From Hyphomicrobiales bacterium (GTDB lineage: Bacteria; Pseudomonadota; Alphaproteobacteria; Rhizobiales; Rhizobiaceae), in NCBI GenBank assembly GCA_900471925.1, contig UCGV01000010.1:263257-327256 (forward strand): DNA of 64,000 nucleotides. Reading direction: 5' to 3'. Shown here in pieces: positions 5,991-25,345 of this stretch; within the stretch, counting starts at the first letter, position 1; each line of letters opens with the position of its first letter. The notes under the pieces are model-generated. The model worked only from the letters and a program-made list of their open reading frames with translations, was not told the DNA's origin and did no database searches. A program made the translations under genes and the position numbers.

Positions 5991-6021
5991 AAAAGAAAAG
6001 GCGGCCCAAAGACCGCCTTTT
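5991..6021 (-). terminator. Terminator after rplS
   Basis: On the minus strand GGCGG and CCGCC form a five-pair stem around an eight-base loop. AAAA and TTTT flanks extend it, and TTTTCTTTTTT follows. It lies about 30 bases past the rplS stop and ends the ribosomal block. Confidence 0.8.
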
Positions 6022-6052
6022 CCATGCAATGATTTTCGCTTTCGCGAGAAGC

Positions 6053-6794: not shown

Positions 6795-7496
6795 TCAGCC
6801 GCCTTTTCCGGCCTTTTGAGCGGCAAGAAGATCGGGGCGCCTTTCCTTTGTCAGCGAGACGGCCTGTTCATGGCGCCACTTCTCGATGGCGCCGTGATTG
6901 CCAGAGGTCAGGATCGCCGGAATCTCACGGCCTTCCCATTCCTGCGGACGCGTATAGTGCGGATGTTCCAGCAGACCGCCTTCAAAACTTTCGTGCAGGC
7001 CGGAGAGGTCGTTGCCCATGACACCCGGCAGGATGCGGATGATCGCATCGAGCACGATCAGCGCGGCCGGCTCGCCACCGGAGAGAACATAGTCGCCGAT
7101 CGAGACTTCCTCGAGTTCTCGTGCCTCGATTACCCGCTGGTCGACGCCCTCGAAGCGGCCGCAGACGATGATCACGCCATCACCCGCCGCCAGTTCCCGC
7201 ACGCGCTCCTGCGTGAGCGGTCTGCCGCGCGGGCTCATCAGCAGGCGCGGGCGGTTGTCGTTTTCGGAAGCACTGTCGATGGCGCGGGCGAGAACATCGG
7301 GCTTCAGCACCATGCCGGCGCCGCCGCCGGCCGGGGTGTCATCGACCGTGCGATGCTTATCGCCGGCAAAATCACGGATCTGCACGGCATCGAGAGACCA
7401 TTGCCCGCGCTCTGCAGCCTTGCCTGCGAGTGAAAAGCCGAGATGGCCCGGAAACATTTCCGGGTAGAGTGTCAGTACAGTCGCCCGGAAAACCAT
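6795..7496 (-). CDS. trmD: tRNA (guanine-37-N1)-methyltransferase
   Basis: A 233-residue SPOUT-class enzyme that makes m1G37 in tRNAs reading CNN codons and so prevents +1 frameshifting. The start [27 protein letters not shown] is standard. The trefoil-knot S-adenosylmethionine site is visible as [11 protein letters not shown] and [20 protein letters not shown]. The tail [23 protein letters not shown] is the conserved tRNA-binding part. It lies five bases downstream of rimM on the same strand, the usual order. Confidence 0.97.
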
Positions 7497-7501
7497 GGCG
7501 C

Positions 7502-8071
7502 TTACTTCTTTTTCTTCGGCTTGCCGGGGGTGAGACCCTTGAGGTCGTCGGGATCGTCGACGAGGCCGGCGGCAAGCGGATCGATCAGCAGCTTGCCGGC
7601 TTCGAGATCGATTTCAAGTACGGAGGCTTCCGAGAAAGGGATCAGCACCGGGCGCTTGCCGGGGCCTTTGAGCTCGAGGAGATCGCCGGCGCCGAAATCG
7701 AAGACTCCGGTCACGGTGCCGTAGCTCACGCCCTGGTCATCGAAGGCTTCGAGCCCTTCCAGATCGGCATAGAAGAACTCGTCGTCCTCCAGCTCCTCAT
7801 CCGACAGGTTGTCGCGCTCGATATAGAGTTCCAGGCCGTTCAGCGCCTCGGCGGCGTTGCGGTCGTTGATGCCACGGAAGCGGACGACGACCATGTTTTT
7901 CATCTCACGCAATTCGAGAACTTCGAAAGCGCGTCCATCCATGCTGTGCAGGTGGCCATAGTCGCCGAGCGCGGTCGGATCGGCCGTGTAGGCCTTCACA
8001 CGCACCTCGCCGCGAATGCCCTGCGCGCCGCCGATGGTCGCCATCAGCACCGGGTTTTCAAGCTTGGTCAT
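7502..8071 (-). CDS. rimM: 16S rRNA processing protein RimM
   Basis: An assembly factor for the 30S head that binds S19. The N-terminal RimM domain is seen as [26 protein letters not shown] and the C-terminal PRC-barrel as [20 protein letters not shown]. The protein ends in a lysine run (GKPKKKK). There are two candidate ATGs, at 8083 and 8071. I choose 8071 because the codons after the upstream ATG contain AAGGA, spaced correctly as a ribosome site for the second. The product is 189 residues. A strong terminator separates it from rpsP, so rimM–trmD–rplS may need its own promoter or readthrough. Confidence 0.95.
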
Positions 8072-8144
8072 GGGTTCCTTCATTCGAACGCAGGCAAGAA
8101 GGTGAAATCACGCTTCTCATAAACGAAGTACGGGGGAATGGAAA

Positions 8145-8197: not shown

Positions 8198-8566
8198 TTA
8201 TTCGGCGGAAGCAGCGGCTTCAGCGGCGTCAGCAGCCTTCTGAGCCTTTTCAGCAGCACGCTCCTGTGCCTTCTTGCCCGGCTTTGCCTTTTCAGGGTTG
8301 TTGCGGGTTTCGCGCTTGGAGATGCCGGCTTCGTCGAGGAAACGCAGAACGCGGTCGGTCGGCAGGGCGCCCTGGTCGAGCCAGTGCTTGATGCGCTCGC
8401 CGTTCAGCTGAACGCGCTTCTCGTCGTCCTTGGCGAGCATCGGGTTCCAGGAACCGAGGTTCTCGAGGAAGCGGCCGTCACGCGGGCTGCGGGCATCAGC
8501 GAGAACGACGTGGTAGTACGGGCGCTTCTTGGAACCACCGCGTGCGAGACGAATTTTCAGTGCCAT
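8198..8566 (-). CDS. rpsP: 30S ribosomal protein S16
   Basis: A small-subunit protein needed for 30S assembly. The conserved core [36 protein letters not shown] and [18 protein letters not shown] is complete. The protein is 122 residues against about 80–90 in many bacteria. The extra C-terminal part after residue ~85 is rich in Ala, Lys and Glu ([18 protein letters not shown]) and resembles the tail on L19 in the same cluster. An AAGGAG ribosome site lies just before the start. Confidence 0.97.
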
Positions 8567-8615: not shown

Positions 8616-8936
8616 TTATCGGGCTGCGGCGCTTTGTTCAGCGTGGTCCGCAGCGATCTGCTCATGATGCCGGATGACTTCCTTGATGACGAAGTTCAGG
8701 AACTTCTCGGCGAAATCCGGGTCCAGATGCGCATCTTCGGCAAGCTGACGAAGACGTGTGATCTGGTATTCTTCGCGCGCCGGATCGGCCGGCGGCAACT
8801 TGTACTTGGCCTTGAGAACGCCGACCTCTTTGGTGCAGCGAAAGCGTTCGGCCAGAATGTGGACGAGCGCCGCATCGATATTGTCGATCGACTGGCGGTA
8901 GCTCGAAAGCTGAGCTTTGACGTCTGGATCAATCAT
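8616..8936 (-). CDS. Chorismate mutase (AroQ class)
   Basis: A 106-residue all-helical chorismate mutase that converts chorismate to prephenate for Phe and Tyr synthesis. The AroQ pattern is clear: YRQSIDNIDAALVHILAERF in helix 1 with the catalytic Arg, LKAKYKLPPADPAREEYQI with the conserved Lys and Arg, and FLNFVIKEVIRHHEQI in the last helix. I start at 8936 (MIDPDVKAQL); the longer frame to 9023 overlaps ffh and adds an unrelated Cys/Arg-rich stretch. It lies 16 bases after ffh. This ffh–aroQ–rpsP order is common in alphaproteobacteria. Confidence 0.92.
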   Translation of the reverse strand: MIDPDVKAQLSSYRQSIDNIDAALVHILAERFRCTKEVGVLKAKYKLPPADPAREEYQITRLRQLAEDAHLDPDFAEKFLNFVIKEVIRHHEQIAADHAEQSAAAR

Positions 8937-8952: not shown

Positions 8953-10536
8953 TCACTTCTTCTTGGGCAATCCGGGCAGGCCCGGGAAACCACCGCCGAG
9001 GCCGGGCAGCTTTGCACCGCCAAGACCGGGCAATCCGCCCGGCAAGCCTCCGCCTAGACCGGGTATACCCCCACCCGGCTTTCCGAGACCCGCGGCTTCG
9101 GCCTGCTGCTGCAAGGCTTCGAGCTGCTTCGGGTCGATATTCGAGAGATCGGGCATGCCACCCATGCCGCCGAGGCCCCCCAGCCCCATCTTGCCGGCAA
9201 GGCCGCCCATCATCTGCTTCATCAGGCCGCCTTTGCCCTTGCCGCCCATCATCTTCATCATGTCCGCCATCTGGCGATGCATCTTCAAAAGCTTGTTGAT
9301 TGCGGCGGCATCAGTGCCGGAGCCGGCGGCAATGCGCTTCTTGCGCGAATGCTTGAGCAGATCGGGATTGGCGCGCTCGGCCTTGGTCATCGACTGGATA
9401 ATGGCGATCTGGCGGCCGAAGAGTTTATCGTCAAGGCCGGCAGCGGCCATCTTGTCCTTCATGCCGGCCATGCCGGGCATCAGGCCCATGATGCCGCCCA
9501 TGCCACCCATCTTCTGCATCTGACGCAGCTGGTCGGCAAGGTCGTTCAGGTCGAACTTGCCCTTGGCCATTTTGGCGGCCATGGCGGCCGCCTTTTCAGC
9601 ATCGATATTTTCCGCAGCCTTCTCGACGAGCGAAACGATGTCGCCCATGCCGAGGATACGGTCGGCGATACGGCGGGGGTGGAACTCTTCCAGCTCGCCC
9701 ATCCGCTCGCCGACACCGATCAGCTTGATCGGCTTGCCGGTCACGGCGCGCATCGAAAGCGCCGCACCGCCACGACCGTCGCCATCCATACGGGTGAGTA
9801 CGAGGCCGGTGATGCCGACGCGCTCATCGAAACTGCGAGCAAGGTTGACGGCGTCCTGACCGGTCAGGCTATCTGCGACCAGCAGGATTTCGTGCGGGTT
9901 GGACTTCTTCTTGATATCGGCCATTTCGGCCATCAAGGGTTCGTCGATATGGGTGCGGCCGGCGGTATCGAGGATAACGACGTCGTGGCCGCCGAGCCTT
10001 GCAGCCTGGACGGCGCGGGCGGCGATATCGGTCGGCGACTGGCCGGCGATGATCGGCAGCGTGTCGATATTGGCCTGGGCGCCGAGCTGGCGAAGCTGCT
10101 CTTGCGCTGCCGGACGGCGCGTGTCGAGCGATGCCATCAGCACCTTCTTCTTCTCGCGCGTCGTCAGGCGGTTGGCGATCTTTGCCGTGGTCGTCGTCTT
10201 GCCGGAGCCCTGCAGGCCGACCATCATGATGACGACGGGAGCAGCGGCGCGCAGGTCGACGCCGACGCCTTCGCCACCGAGCATCTCGATCAGCTCGTCA
10301 TGGACGATCTTGACGACCATCTGGCCGGGCTTGATCGATTTCAGGATTTCGGCGCCGACGGCCTTTTCACGGACGCGATCGGTAAAGGAGCGGACGACCT
10401 CAAGCGAAACGTCGGCTTCCAGAAGCGCACGGCGAACCTCCCGCAGCGCTGCGGAAACATCACTTTCCGAAAGCGCGCCACGGCCTGTCAGTCCATTCAG
10501 GATGGAACCAAGACGGTCCTGGAGGTTCTCAAACAT
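8953..10536 (-). CDS. ffh: Signal recognition particle GTPase Ffh
   Basis: A 527-residue SRP54 homologue that binds signal sequences of nascent membrane proteins and hands the ribosome to FtsY. The N domain runs over residues 1–85. The G domain has the P-loop GLQGSGKTTT, DTAGRT and TRMDGDGRGGAALS. The M domain holds many methionines (GGMGGIMGLMPGMAGMKDKM, MHRQMADMMKMMGG) and the RNA-binding RIAAGSG. The last ~60 residues are Gly/Pro/Leu-rich and end in KKK, a tail typical of rhizobial Ffh. The start at 10536 has an AAGGAAGAG site. Its partner ftsY is 3 kb away on the other strand. Confidence 0.97.
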   Translation of the reverse strand: MFENLQDRLGSILNGLTGRGALSESDVSAALREVRRALLEADVSLEVVRSFTDRVREKAVGAEILKSIKPGQMVVKIVHDELIEMLGGEGVGVDLRAAAPVVIMMVGLQGSGKTTTTAKIANRLTTREKKKVLMASLDTRRPAAQEQLRQLGAQANIDTLPIIAGQSPTDIAARAVQAARLGGHDVVILDTAGRTHIDEPLMAEMADIKKKSNPHEILLVADSLTGQDAVNLARSFDERVGITGLVLTRMDGDGRGGAALSMRAVTGKPIKLIGVGERMGELEEFHPRRIADRILGMGDIVSLVEKAAENIDAEKAAAMAAKMAKGKFDLNDLADQLRQMQKMGGMGGIMGLMPGMAGMKDKMAAAGLDDKLFGRQIAIIQSMTKAERANPDLLKHSRKKRIAAGSGTDAAAINKLLKMHRQMADMMKMMGGKGKGGLMKQMMGGLAGKMGLGGLGGMGGMPDLSNIDPKQLEALQQQAEAAGLGKPGGGIPGLGGGLPGGLPGLGGAKLPGLGGGFPGLPGLPKKK

Positions 10537-10618
10537 CGGCTCTTCCTTGCTACGTTTCGGGGAGTTTTGGGGTGTCCCGAACGTCGTGCTTTTCCTTGAC
10601 GAAAACAAGACGCAAAGC

Positions 10619-10654
10619 CAAAAAGCACCCGAGGGCGCAACGCGCTGTCGGGTG
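10619..10654 (-). terminator. Intrinsic terminator upstream of ffh
   Basis: Read on the minus strand, CACCCGA and GCGC pair with GCGC and TCGGGTG around a GTT loop (positions 10654 to 10626), directly followed by CTTTTT. It lies about 80 bases before the ffh start codon and points towards ffh, so it ends a short transcript or attenuates ffh. Confidence 0.75.
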
Positions 10655-10714
10655 TTGACCTCCAGAATCGAAGTTCCGGTCGGCGGCTCGGAGTTCTGTT
10701 ACTCGTCGCAGATT
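10619..10714 (-). ncRNA. Candidate small RNA or attenuated leader of ffh
   Basis: A promoter-like pair at 10749–10721 and an intrinsic terminator ending near 10619 enclose about 95 bases with no reading frame of useful length. The RNA would end in a strong GC hairpin and a U tract. It lacks the conserved SRP RNA tetraloop and GGAAG motifs, so it is not 4.5S RNA. It may be an independent small RNA, or a leader whose terminator controls readthrough into ffh. The 5' end is inferred from the promoter only. Confidence 0.4.
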
Positions 10715-10720
10715 TGGCGC

Positions 10721-10749
10721 GATAAACAGGAAAGCAGACGGAAAGTCAA
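10721..10749 (-). promoter_or_regulatory. Probable sigma-70 promoter for the ffh leader transcript
   Basis: On the minus strand, TTGACT (10749–10744, preceded by C) is followed after exactly 17 bases by TTTATC (10726–10721). CTTGAC with 17-base spacing is the housekeeping promoter pattern of rhizobia. No other candidate as good lies between here and ffh. Confidence 0.5.
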
Positions 10750-11228: not shown

Positions 11229-11354
11229 ATTTGGATTTCTCGGTGCCTCGCGCGTATGCGCAGGTTACAAGGGCAAACATCGCTTGGCGCTCACCCACTG
11301 GTAATCCCTGCGCGTTTCCGCCATATACAGTGGAAACGCAGTGGAAAATGTCAG

Positions 11355-12257
11355 ATGAGCAACACGGTCGAATTCGCGAGGATGAACGGGCTTGGCAACA
11401 AGATCCTGGTTGTCGACATGCGCGGACGAACCGATAAGGTGACGCCGCAGGCGGCGGTCGCGCTCAATGCCGATGCCGAGACGCAGTTCGACCAGATCAT
11501 GGCGATCCATGATCCGAAGGCTGAGGGCACGGACGCCTATATCGATATTCTGAACTCCGACGGCTCCAAGGCGCAGGCCTGCGGCAACGGCACACGCTGC
11601 GTCGTACAGGCGCTCGCCGCCGAAACCGGCAAGAAGGCTTTCACCTTCCAAACGGTTGCCGGCATTCTGAACGCAGTCGAGCATGAGGATGGCACGATCT
11701 CCGTCGACATGGGACGGCCGGTGTTCGAATGGAACCGAATTCCGCTTGCCGAAGAATTCTTCGATACGAGCCGTATCGAATTGCAGATCGGACCGATCGA
11801 CAATCCCGTGCTGCATTCACCCTCGGTCATGTCGATGGGTAATCCGCATGCGATCTTCTGGGTCGATCGCGATCCCATGAGCTTCGATCTCGAACGTTTC
11901 GGACCGCTTCTCGAAAATCATCCGATGTTCCCTGAGAAGGCCAATATCACGCTGGCGCAGGTGATCTCGGATTCGGCGCTGCGCACGCGCACCTGGGAGC
12001 GCGGCGCAGGCCTGACGCTTGCCTGCGGGTCGGCCGCTTGCGCCTCCGCCGTCAGTGCCGCGCGCACCGGCCGTACGGGTCGCAAGGTGACGATCGACGT
12101 TGCTTCCAGCCCGATCCGCCAGCCTCTGGTGATCGATTGGCGTGATGACGACCATGTCGTCATGACTGGTCCAGCCGAATGGGAATGGTCGGGCATGCTC
12201 GATCCGTCCTCCGGCACATGGTCTCGCGATGCCGAGCGCGGGGTGGAAGCGCGGTGA
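11355..12257 (+). CDS. dapF: Diaminopimelate epimerase
   Basis: A 300-residue PLP-independent epimerase that converts LL- to meso-diaminopimelate for lysine and peptidoglycan. The two catalytic cysteines are visible: Cys76 in [10 protein letters not shown] and Cys224 in [11 protein letters not shown]. Other signatures are [12 protein letters not shown] near the N-terminus and [11 protein letters not shown] start at 11355 ([15 protein letters not shown]); upstream in-frame codons to 11256 do not resemble the family. The stop overlaps the next gene in a GTGA arrangement, so dapF and mtaB are translationally coupled. Confidence 0.96.
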
Positions 12258-13543: not shown

Positions 13544-14989
13544 ATGGCGCTCAGTTTCATCAAAAAGGTCTTCACCTTCGGCAAGCCGGCGGAAGAGCCT
13601 GTGCCGGAGGCCGTGCAAGCAGAGCTGGAGCCGCGCTCGCGCGACGAGGATCTGCCGGTTGCCGCGGATCCGGTACTTGCCGAGGAGATGGATACAGCCG
13701 GCGGGCCGGCTGCTGATGTCGCTGAAACTGTAGCGGAACAGGAACCTGCTGAGGCGGAGCCGGACGTTTTGCCGGCGGTCGATCAGCTGGGTGATATGGG
13801 CGTCGTGCCCTTGTCGCTGTTGGAGGCTGAAGCGGAGGCCGAGGAAAGCCCGGCGATTTCTGCCGACACTATCGAAAGCGAACGGACAGCCGACCTGGTC
13901 GATGATGAAGGCTCGGTTGAGGCCATTGAAGCGCTTGCCGAAGAAGTGCCGCCTGCAAAGGTAGCCGAGGAAGAGCCTCTTGTGGATGAGGCTCTGGCGC
14001 CGGTTCTTCCAAAGGGTTTTGCCACTGGTCCCGTCGCGGAGCCGGAACCGGTTATTGTCGCACAGCCGAGACTTTCCTGGTTCCAACGCCTGCGCAATGG
14101 TCTGGCACGTACTTCTTCGCAGCTCACAAGCCAGATCACGGCTCTTTTCACCAAGCGCAAGCTCGATGACGAGACGCTGCAGGATCTGGAAGACCTGCTC
14201 ATCCAGGCCGATCTCGGTGTCGAGACGGCAATGCGGGTCACCGATACTCTGGCGTCAGAGCGCTATGGCAAGGACGTGACGGGCGAAGATGTCAGCCGCA
14301 TCATGGCGACCGAGATCGCCAAGGTGCTGAAGCCGGTCGCCAAGCCGCTGCAGCTTGATCTGTCGCACAAGCCGCATGTCATTCTTGTCGTCGGCGTCAA
14401 CGGTACAGGCAAGACGACGACGATAGGCAAGCTCGCGGCCAAACTCTCCGGCTCCGGTCTGAAGGTCATGCTGGCGGCCGGTGATACGTTCCGTGCCGCA
14501 GCTATCGAACAGCTGAAGATCTGGGCCGATCGCACGAAGTCCGAATTCATCGGCACCAAACTCGGCGCCGATGCGGCTGGGCTTGCCTACGATGCATTCG
14601 AACAGGCAAAGGCCAAAAAATGCGACGTGCTGATCATCGACACGGCCGGCCGCCTGCAGAACAAGGCGGAGCTGATGGCCGAGCTTGAAAAGATCGTACG
14701 CGTGCTCGGCAAGCTCGATCCGGATGCCCCGCATACGGTGCTGCAGACGCTCGATGCGACAACGGGCCAGAACGCGCTCAATCAGGTCGAGATATTCCGT
14801 AATGTCGCCGGCGTCAGCGGTCTCATCATGACGAAGCTTGACGGCACGGCACGCGGCGGCATTCTGGTCGCGATCTCCGCCAAGCATAAATTGCCGGTCT
14901 ACTTCATTGGCGTCGGGGAAGGGGTCGATGATCTCGAGCCCTTCGAGGCCGAGGATTTTGCCCAGGCCATTGCCGGCATTGGCCAATGA
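13544..14989 (+). CDS. ftsY: Signal recognition particle receptor FtsY
   Basis: A 481-residue SRP receptor GTPase. The first ~170 residues are a long acidic A domain rich in Glu, Ala, Pro and Val, followed by the N domain (WFQRLRNGLARTSSQL). The G domain carries GVNGTGKTTTIGKLA, the insertion-box loop GDTFRAAAIEQL, DTAGRL and TKLDGTARGG. It works with Ffh (8953–10536). It is downstream of dapF–mtaB and upstream of yciB, a conserved alphaproteobacterial order. The start ATG at 13544 sits 15 bases after mtaB. Confidence 0.97.
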   Translation: MALSFIKKVFTFGKPAEEPVPEAVQAELEPRSRDEDLPVAADPVLAEEMDTAGGPAADVAETVAEQEPAEAEPDVLPAVDQLGDMGVVPLSLLEAEAEAEESPAISADTIESERTADLVDDEGSVEAIEALAEEVPPAKVAEEEPLVDEALAPVLPKGFATGPVAEPEPVIVAQPRLSWFQRLRNGLARTSSQLTSQITALFTKRKLDDETLQDLEDLLIQADLGVETAMRVTDTLASERYGKDVTGEDVSRIMATEIAKVLKPVAKPLQLDLSHKPHVILVVGVNGTGKTTTIGKLAAKLSGSGLKVMLAAGDTFRAAAIEQLKIWADRTKSEFIGTKLGADAAGLAYDAFEQAKAKKCDVLIIDTAGRLQNKAELMAELEKIVRVLGKLDPDAPHTVLQTLDATTGQNALNQVEIFRNVAGVSGLIMTKLDGTARGGILVAISAKHKLPVYFIGVGEGVDDLEPFEAEDFAQAIAGIGQ

Positions 14990-25166: not shown

Positions 25167-25180
25167 AGTTTCCTCTTACA

Positions 25181-25234
25181 AGCTCCGATGGAAATACGGT
25201 GTCGGGTTCACGACCCGGGCGCCGCTGCGGAGCT
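25181..25234 (-). ncRNA. ybhL-type leader RNA
   Basis: On the minus strand AGCTCCG (25234–25228) pairs with CGGAGCT (25187–25181), and inside it CGGGT pairs with ACCCG around CGTGA. The element ends about 15 bases before the start codon of a YbhL-family gene. A conserved RNA motif upstream of ybhL is known in alphaproteobacteria. I assign it from position and fold, not from an alignment. The outer stem would reach close to the ribosome site. Confidence 0.6.
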
Positions 25235-25345
25235 CCAGCATGCCTGCAGACAATATGAGGCTTTCGCCGAATTCAAACAAGGCCCTTGCAATCAGCCCTT
25301 CGGTTAAATCGCCGTAAGGTGAAGGGATTTGAGCTCCTGACCGCC

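Follow-up and report, generated by a model that had tools for sequence, protein, structure and literature searches.

Autoregulatory leaders of ribosomal proteins are structured RNAs that head operons carrying ribosomal protein genes. The RNA treated here lies ahead of ffh and was described twice before, first as sm5 of S. meliloti, predicted in 2008 in the arrangement dapF<sm5>ffh> with a sigma-70-type promoter and a predicted Rho-independent terminator (PMC2573895). Counted from the nearer of its two starts, its predicted length is 108 nt, its alignment took in R. etli and R. leguminosarum, and it gave a microarray signal, with no northern blot; the passages of that report dealing with sm5 file it as an sRNA gene and do not discuss a link to the operon (PMC2573895). 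The second description is the "ffh motif" of Meyer et al. (2009), a covarying stem with two conserved cytosines found in SAR11 and in every Rhizobiales, Rhodobacterales and Sphingomonadales genome sequenced by that time, absent from Rhodospirillales and Caulobacterales, and suggested to regulate ffh (PMC2704228). A search of that paper's main text for rpsP, rplS, S16, L19, trmD and rimM finds no mention of any of them. Rfam holds the family as RF01793 ("ffh sRNA") and types it as sRNA. Further mentions are an ffH leader RNA detected by RNA-seq in Bartonella bacilliformis (PMC7717549), whose likeness to the present locus is one of family name, the passage giving no function, and a Mesorhizobium huakuii sRNA, from an intergenic region of a plasmid, that is listed under RF01793 (PMC5596092). 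In PMC2881028 and PMC7143759 the passages on ffh deal with 4.5S RNA only, as does the one on SRP in PMC3738593, and no function for the family, named in 2009, was found in the literature searched.

The window, a stretch of 64,000 nucleotides from a Hyphomicrobiales bacterium (contig UCGV01000010.1, positions 263,257 to 327,256), contains one member of this family. The Rfam covariance model for RF01793 matches positions 10618..10669 of the minus strand (66.2 bits, E 2e-10; gathering cut-off 35), which is the sole match in the window's genome at E <= 0.001. The locus has the traits of the family, namely a single bulged hairpin, two conserved cytosines in the bulge and a place before ffh. The same stretch aligns with the dapF-ffh gap of S. 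meliloti Ak57 at 76.2% identity over 94% of its length and with that of Rhizobium sp. NLR16a at 90.7% over 99%, and in both relatives ffh, a chorismate mutase gene and rpsP follow the gap. The element is therefore not new as a feature: it is an RF01793 member, an ortholog of both the predicted sm5 (2008) and the "ffh motif" (Meyer 2009). With sm5 it has in common the place between dapF and ffh, a sigma-70-type promoter and a predicted terminator (PMC2573895); with RF01793 and the "ffh motif" it shares the same hairpin, the same site before ffh and the same two bulge cytosines. The Rfam model differs from the picture reached here in leaving a second hairpin, P1, unpaired, and a model of hairpin P2 and its tail (R1) reaches roughly double the number of genomes in the class. 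What comparison adds to the earlier descriptions is the conserved promoter, P1, the count of a C.C mismatch in P2, a T run that is not constant, the wider range of R1, and a place at the head of an operon that holds also in the marine PS1/OCS116 clade. These results, together with membership of the family, covariation in both hairpins and persistence of the RNA where no SRP was found, were obtained by computation.

The first-pass annotation had called a promoter, a hairpin and a T tract upstream of ffh, and each is found on the minus strand where it had been placed. The order of elements is a −35 hexamer CTTGAC (10750-10745), a −10 hexamer TTTATC (10726-10721), a hairpin (10654-10626), the tail CTTTTT (10625-10620) and the ffh ATG at 10536. 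Transcription is predicted to start at 10714, +/- 2, from the position of the −10 element. The exact 17-base spacing that had been reported holds when counted from TTGACT (10749-10744) but not from CTTGAC, which gives 18. Relatives often carry TTTAAG, TTTATC or TTTACC as the −10 element, at a spacing of 16-17 bases. Generic searches recover little of this: a promoter scan of 11 kb returned 2 sites against 2.4 +/- 1.6 in shuffles and missed the one ahead of ffh, because its −10 element is poor by the E. coli consensus. A terminator scan of the same 11 kb found 13 terminator-like sites against 10.5 +/- 3.7 in shuffles, one of them a shorter hairpin (10638-10625) within the 3' half of the reported one, and the fold of the 99-nt RNA has z = -1.64, with 12 of 200 shuffles equally good. 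Promoter and hairpin, each taken alone, are thus not above chance, and conservation lifts both far beyond it; with generic scans no better than shuffles, the case for the element is one made by comparison. CTTGAC with a −10-like hexamer at 16-18 bases occurs in 28 of 31 Rhizobiaceae loci, where 0.23 are expected from mononucleotide shuffles, and across the class 143 of 145 loci have TTGAC within 150 nt before P2, against about 15.7 predicted, likewise from mononucleotide shuffles. The box is present in 30/31 loci of the family, 46/47 from the rest of the order and 67/67 from the rest of the class.

Downstream of this promoter, two adjacent hairpins are predicted. P1 (10658..10684, minus strand; GCC..CCGGAA / UUCUGG.GGU), recognized from the fold and from covariation in relatives, lies directly 5' of P2 and is unpaired in the consensus structure of RF01793. 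P2 (10626..10654, minus strand) consists of 7 bp, the mismatch C10647.C10633, the opposition A10646.C10634, 4 bp and a 3-nt loop, and is followed by the CTTTTT tail (10620..10625; C at 10625, five T at 10624-10620), which is terminator-like in Rhizobiaceae and not in general. In two lineage groups with quite different sequences, 95.9% and 87.0% of P1 cells are paired, and 6/9 and 7/9 of its pairs have changed on both sides; for P2 the figure is 11/12, with the variable A.C position counted as a pair. No shuffle among 500 reached the observed covariation score of the whole two-hairpin structure in either group, and one of five covariation measures (further pair types, second group) was reached by 40 of 500. 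These shuffles ignore shared descent; slid-column controls allow for it. The alignments were A2, with 33 loci, mostly picked for a short P1 loop, from 79 of the order (31 of the family and 48 others), in which rows L012, L023 and L029 were retained although their 5' arm seems misaligned; A3, with 19 loci, 18 of them from 68 of other orders; and A4, which like model R1 takes in 81 of 147 loci and leaves out L142, whose P2 had been miscut. An alignment of 34 rows, A1, stands outside all counts. Since a crude fold test (a hairpin ending <=5 nt from P2) is passed by 131 of 146 real loci against 85.3 expected, shuffles often passing too, support for P1 comes from the covariation counts.

The C.C mismatch of P2 is present in 80 of 81 sequences, and the position next to it is A.C in 55, C-G in 11, G.U in 6, A.A in 4 and A-U, G-C or U-A in 5 (n = 81). 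The inner letters of the hairpin are near-invariant, and the tail has T at position 4 and TT(T/G)G near positions 10-13 in 110 of 147 loci. A constitutive 5' UTR structure with no ligand, acting in mRNA stability or as a plain terminator-like pause, would account for the strong stems, and covariation by itself would be no proof of regulation. We nonetheless hold such a structure to be very unlikely, as the C.C mismatch, the near-invariant inner letters and the TT(T/G)G tail exceed what a plain stem needs.

A covariance search across Rhizobiales, which the first-pass annotation had proposed as a check, places RF01793 in 227 of 249 genomes of the order, as well as in 118 of 121 genomes of the window's family and 106 of 385 in a sample of the class. 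In a sample of the phylum, whose number of genomes outside the class is not given, it occurs in 55 of 299, all 55 inside the class. There is one match per genome, save for one genome (G259) with two on two contigs. Model R1 was built from P2 and its tail with 81 seeds, all RF01793 members; in the window it matches 10612..10656 of the minus strand (61.9 bits, E 4e-16), the locus being itself one of the seeds. Applied to 30 ffh loci from genomes without an RF01793 match, R1 found 17 at E < 1e-4 and one at 0.03, with none at the other 12. It matches 230 of 385 class genomes, with two matches in a few, and 100 of 398 in a phylum sample, again with the number outside the class not given and all matches inside it. 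Twenty R1 sites missed by RF01793 were inspected, and ffh lies directly downstream in 20/20. The element is therefore more widespread than Rfam's model shows. Several of the genomes without a match are small, such as those of one family (f4) at 1.0-1.5 Mb; in three of these, which have ffh, no P2 core was seen.

The constant parts of the element are the promoter, P1 and P2, and the terminator-like end is not constant, as the counts of T runs make plain. At least four T follow P2 in 23 of 31 loci of Rhizobiaceae, 20 of 48 from the rest of the order and 28 of 68 from the rest of the class, in total 71 of 147. In each of these groups T is more frequent in the tail than in the flank. Among loci with the ffh start no more than 25 nt away, 7 of 21 have the T run; at other loci the count is 60 of 119. 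The hairpin is conserved in related genomes, and outside Rhizobiaceae the T run follows it in 48 of 116 loci. In the window itself the hairpin is followed by a T run, the configuration of an intrinsic terminator. Such a unit predicts the short RNA of ~95 nt that had been proposed ahead of ffh, and its counterpart sm5 was predicted likewise and gave an array signal (PMC2573895). Since most Rhizobiaceae loci have a T run after P2, part of the transcripts there should stop at it, and in this family the short RNA is probably real, as the terminated part of a leader.

The first-pass annotation went further in raising control of SRP levels by termination. As a general account this is not supported, given the 71 of 147 loci with a T run and the retention of the RNA before rpsP in genomes without a detectable SRP; moreover, the only switch-like pairing seen is not conserved over 31 relatives. 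That pairing, between the 3' arm of P1 and the first ffh codons, is prominent in a 215-nt fold and in the window alone has a longest run of 10 against 6.46 in shuffles. Over the 31 loci the mean longest run is 6.10 against 5.85 in shuffled sequences, and this one candidate for a conserved alternative pairing was rejected. The further claim that the unit is not SRP RNA stands: between 10400 and 11100 nothing other than RF01793 matches at E <= 1, the SRP RNA model (RF00169) included, and the SRP RNA of this genome lies on another contig (C26).

What the RNA heads in the window is a row of minus-strand genes: ffh (SRP54; 8953..10536), a chorismate mutase gene (8616..8936, so named at the same place in two annotated relatives), rpsP (ribosomal protein S16; 8198..8566, annotated in relatives), rimM (7502..8083), trmD (6795..7496) and rplS (ribosomal protein L19; 6053..6595). 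A terminator-like hairpin of 13 pairs with a T run (5994..6023, minus strand) just after rplS is the probable end of the operon. On the other side of the RNA lies the divergent dapF (11256..12257, plus strand, given as the longest frame; the true start may be further in). The gene for the other SRP GTPase, ftsY, is also in the window (13544-14989, plus strand), ~3 kb from ffh, and a ybhL leader (RF00520, 79 bits) is found at 25178-25246 of the minus strand. Judged by gene order, the RNA thus heads an operon that includes ribosomal protein genes. The regulation of the rpsP/trmD operon is called unknown in the passage of a 2024 review that deals with it (PMC10931766).

This position is kept across the class. 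Gene order was read at 147 RF01793 loci, those listed with their place and fetched, which are a subset of the matches and include some below the gathering cut-off. The downstream gene is ffh in 143 (140 by tblastn, 3 read as ORFs) and rpsP in 2 (L111, L090), and 2 loci meet the contig end. The gap from the RNA to the ffh ATG ranges from 9 to 687 nt and is <=25 nt in 21 of 140 loci, where the RNA can therefore hardly lie outside the mRNA leader. A search for rpsP in 80 motif-bearing class genomes, part of 102 listed (106 have RF01793), gave matches in 79 and placed rpsP 1.4-5.1 kb downstream of the RNA on the same strand in 78. One of the two exceptions has no rpsP match; the other has rpsP on a second contig, with an R1 match ~1.5 kb upstream. 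The 22 genomes left out of this search include four of the PS1/OCS116 family, which were inspected separately. In three loci of one family (L044, L050, L057), the RNA and ffh are separated by a same-strand ORF of ~150 aa, judged SH3-like by eye, an arrangement compatible with a cis leader and with a free RNA alike.

A small RNA of the sm5 kind, acting in trans or by binding a protein from its own promoter and terminator while the operon is fed by readthrough, would fit the promoter box at 143 of 145 loci, the T run in 23 of 31 Rhizobiaceae loci and Rfam's typing of RF01793 as sRNA. It would also fit the prediction of sm5 as an independent, array-positive unit (PMC2573895) and the plasmid-borne RF01793 RNA listed for M. 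huakuii (PMC5596092). The plasmid listing is at odds with the other loci, being away from the operon unless that replicon carries the operon; a search of a plasmid collection for the M. huakuii locus gave 6 records, none of Mesorhizobium. A free RNA is hard to reconcile with nearly all examined loci heading the same operon, with a T run missing in about half of them and with start codons <=25 nt away in 21 of 140, and we consider it rather unlikely. As a separate observation, plasmid p3 of Rhizobium sp. NLR16a (NZ_CP072868.1, a 489-kb record; L244) carries the whole ftsY-mtaB-dapF-RNA-ffh-rpsP-rimM stretch, which is either a labelling matter or a case of essential genes on a secondary replicon.

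In one clade the RNA occurs without ffh beside it. In all four genomes of one family (f101), it is flanked by dapF and, immediately downstream, by rpsP, and ffh is absent from the locus. A sequence pattern drawn from this family finds 12 contigs from the marine PS1 clade, the OCS116 cluster and related MAGs, the four genomes of the family included. On these stretches rpsP follows the RNA in 12/12 and ffh is present in 0/12; the TTGAC box precedes the RNA in 12/12, and a T run of at least four follows it in 5/12. In four PS1/OCS116 genomes that are 93-97% complete, a protein query found no Ffh, a domain search found no SRP54 domain (that of Ffh and FtsY), and a search for SRP RNA found none. 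As controls, the Ffh query found its target in 32 of 33 other genomes, with an identity of >=52% in 31, and the SRP54 search in 4/4 other alphaproteobacteria and 14/14 well-known genomes. SRP RNA was recovered in 3/3 others, one of them below the cut-off, and in 11/14 well-known genomes, which makes it the weaker of these tests. The clade is known here from draft single-cell and metagenome assemblies, and the literature searched held nothing on SRP in the PS1 clade. It is possible, on these searches, that the whole SRP pathway has been lost in the marine PS1/OCS116 clade, and the RNA seems to have outlived its supposed SRP target, remaining beside the ribosomal genes. Should the loss of SRP be real, Ffh is excluded as the ligand there. 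Possible losses of ffh were also seen in two genomes rated 100% complete: one of 0.9 Mb (G433) has no Ffh match, and one of 1.9 Mb (G474) has only matches at <=34% identity, as FtsY-like proteins give.

These findings bear directly on an attenuator or leader that would sense Ffh or SRP and set SRP levels, as the first-pass annotation had it and as the suggestion of ffh regulation by Meyer et al. (2009) would imply. Its place upstream of ffh in 143 of 147 loci and the T run after the hairpin in the window speak for such a device. The RNA is kept, however, before rpsP where no SRP component was found, the SRP RNA model has no match at the site, and pairing with the ffh start is not conserved, and we regard an SRP sensor as improbable. 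As far as sequence comparison can tell, the element is probably a leader that acts in cis on the S16-L19 operon, and not an SRP attenuator.

We therefore favor, with slightly more confidence than doubt, a 5' leader of the ffh-(chorismate mutase)-rpsP-rimM-trmD-rplS operon that is bound by a product of the ribosomal half and lowers expression in cis. In this scheme, transcription would start at about 10714 from the conserved promoter and the leader would fold into P1 and P2. The recognized part would be P2, marked by the C.C mismatch, by inner letters that hardly vary and by the UU(U/G)G tail. S16, RimM, TrmD and L19 are candidate ligands because they are encoded downstream in both arrangements; our guess is S16 or L19 first, with RimM or TrmD possible. 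Binding of the ligand to the leader would repress the operon in cis, acting on translation or on early transcription, and in Rhizobiaceae some transcripts would also stop at the T run of P2, giving a short RNA of ~95 nt as for sm5. We infer the cis role and the common operon transcript; by analogy, the leader may work like the autoregulatory leaders of ribosomal proteins, which likewise are structured and head their operons. Several points count against a cis leader. The argument for the ribosomal half draws mainly on one clade, in which the RNA may survive merely as a remnant by its promoter, and a free small RNA would also fit a promoter found class-wide and a T run at 71 of 147 loci (5 of 12 in PS1/OCS116).

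A fuller statement of the cis-leader reading, which we offer tentatively and would not yet call the likelier case, is that the "ffh RNA" is the autoregulatory leader of the alphaproteobacterial rpsP-rimM-trmD-rplS genes, its two hairpins and C.C mismatch bound by S16, L19, RimM or TrmD, with ffh merely placed inside the unit and the RNA staying with the ribosomal genes when PS1/OCS116 lost SRP. The clade in which SRP was not found and the RNA was kept amounts to a natural experiment, one that points away from SRP and toward the ribosomal operon. The open question is thereby narrowed to four candidate ligands and one defined RNA. If the reading is true, a single signal would set SRP and ribosome assembly together.
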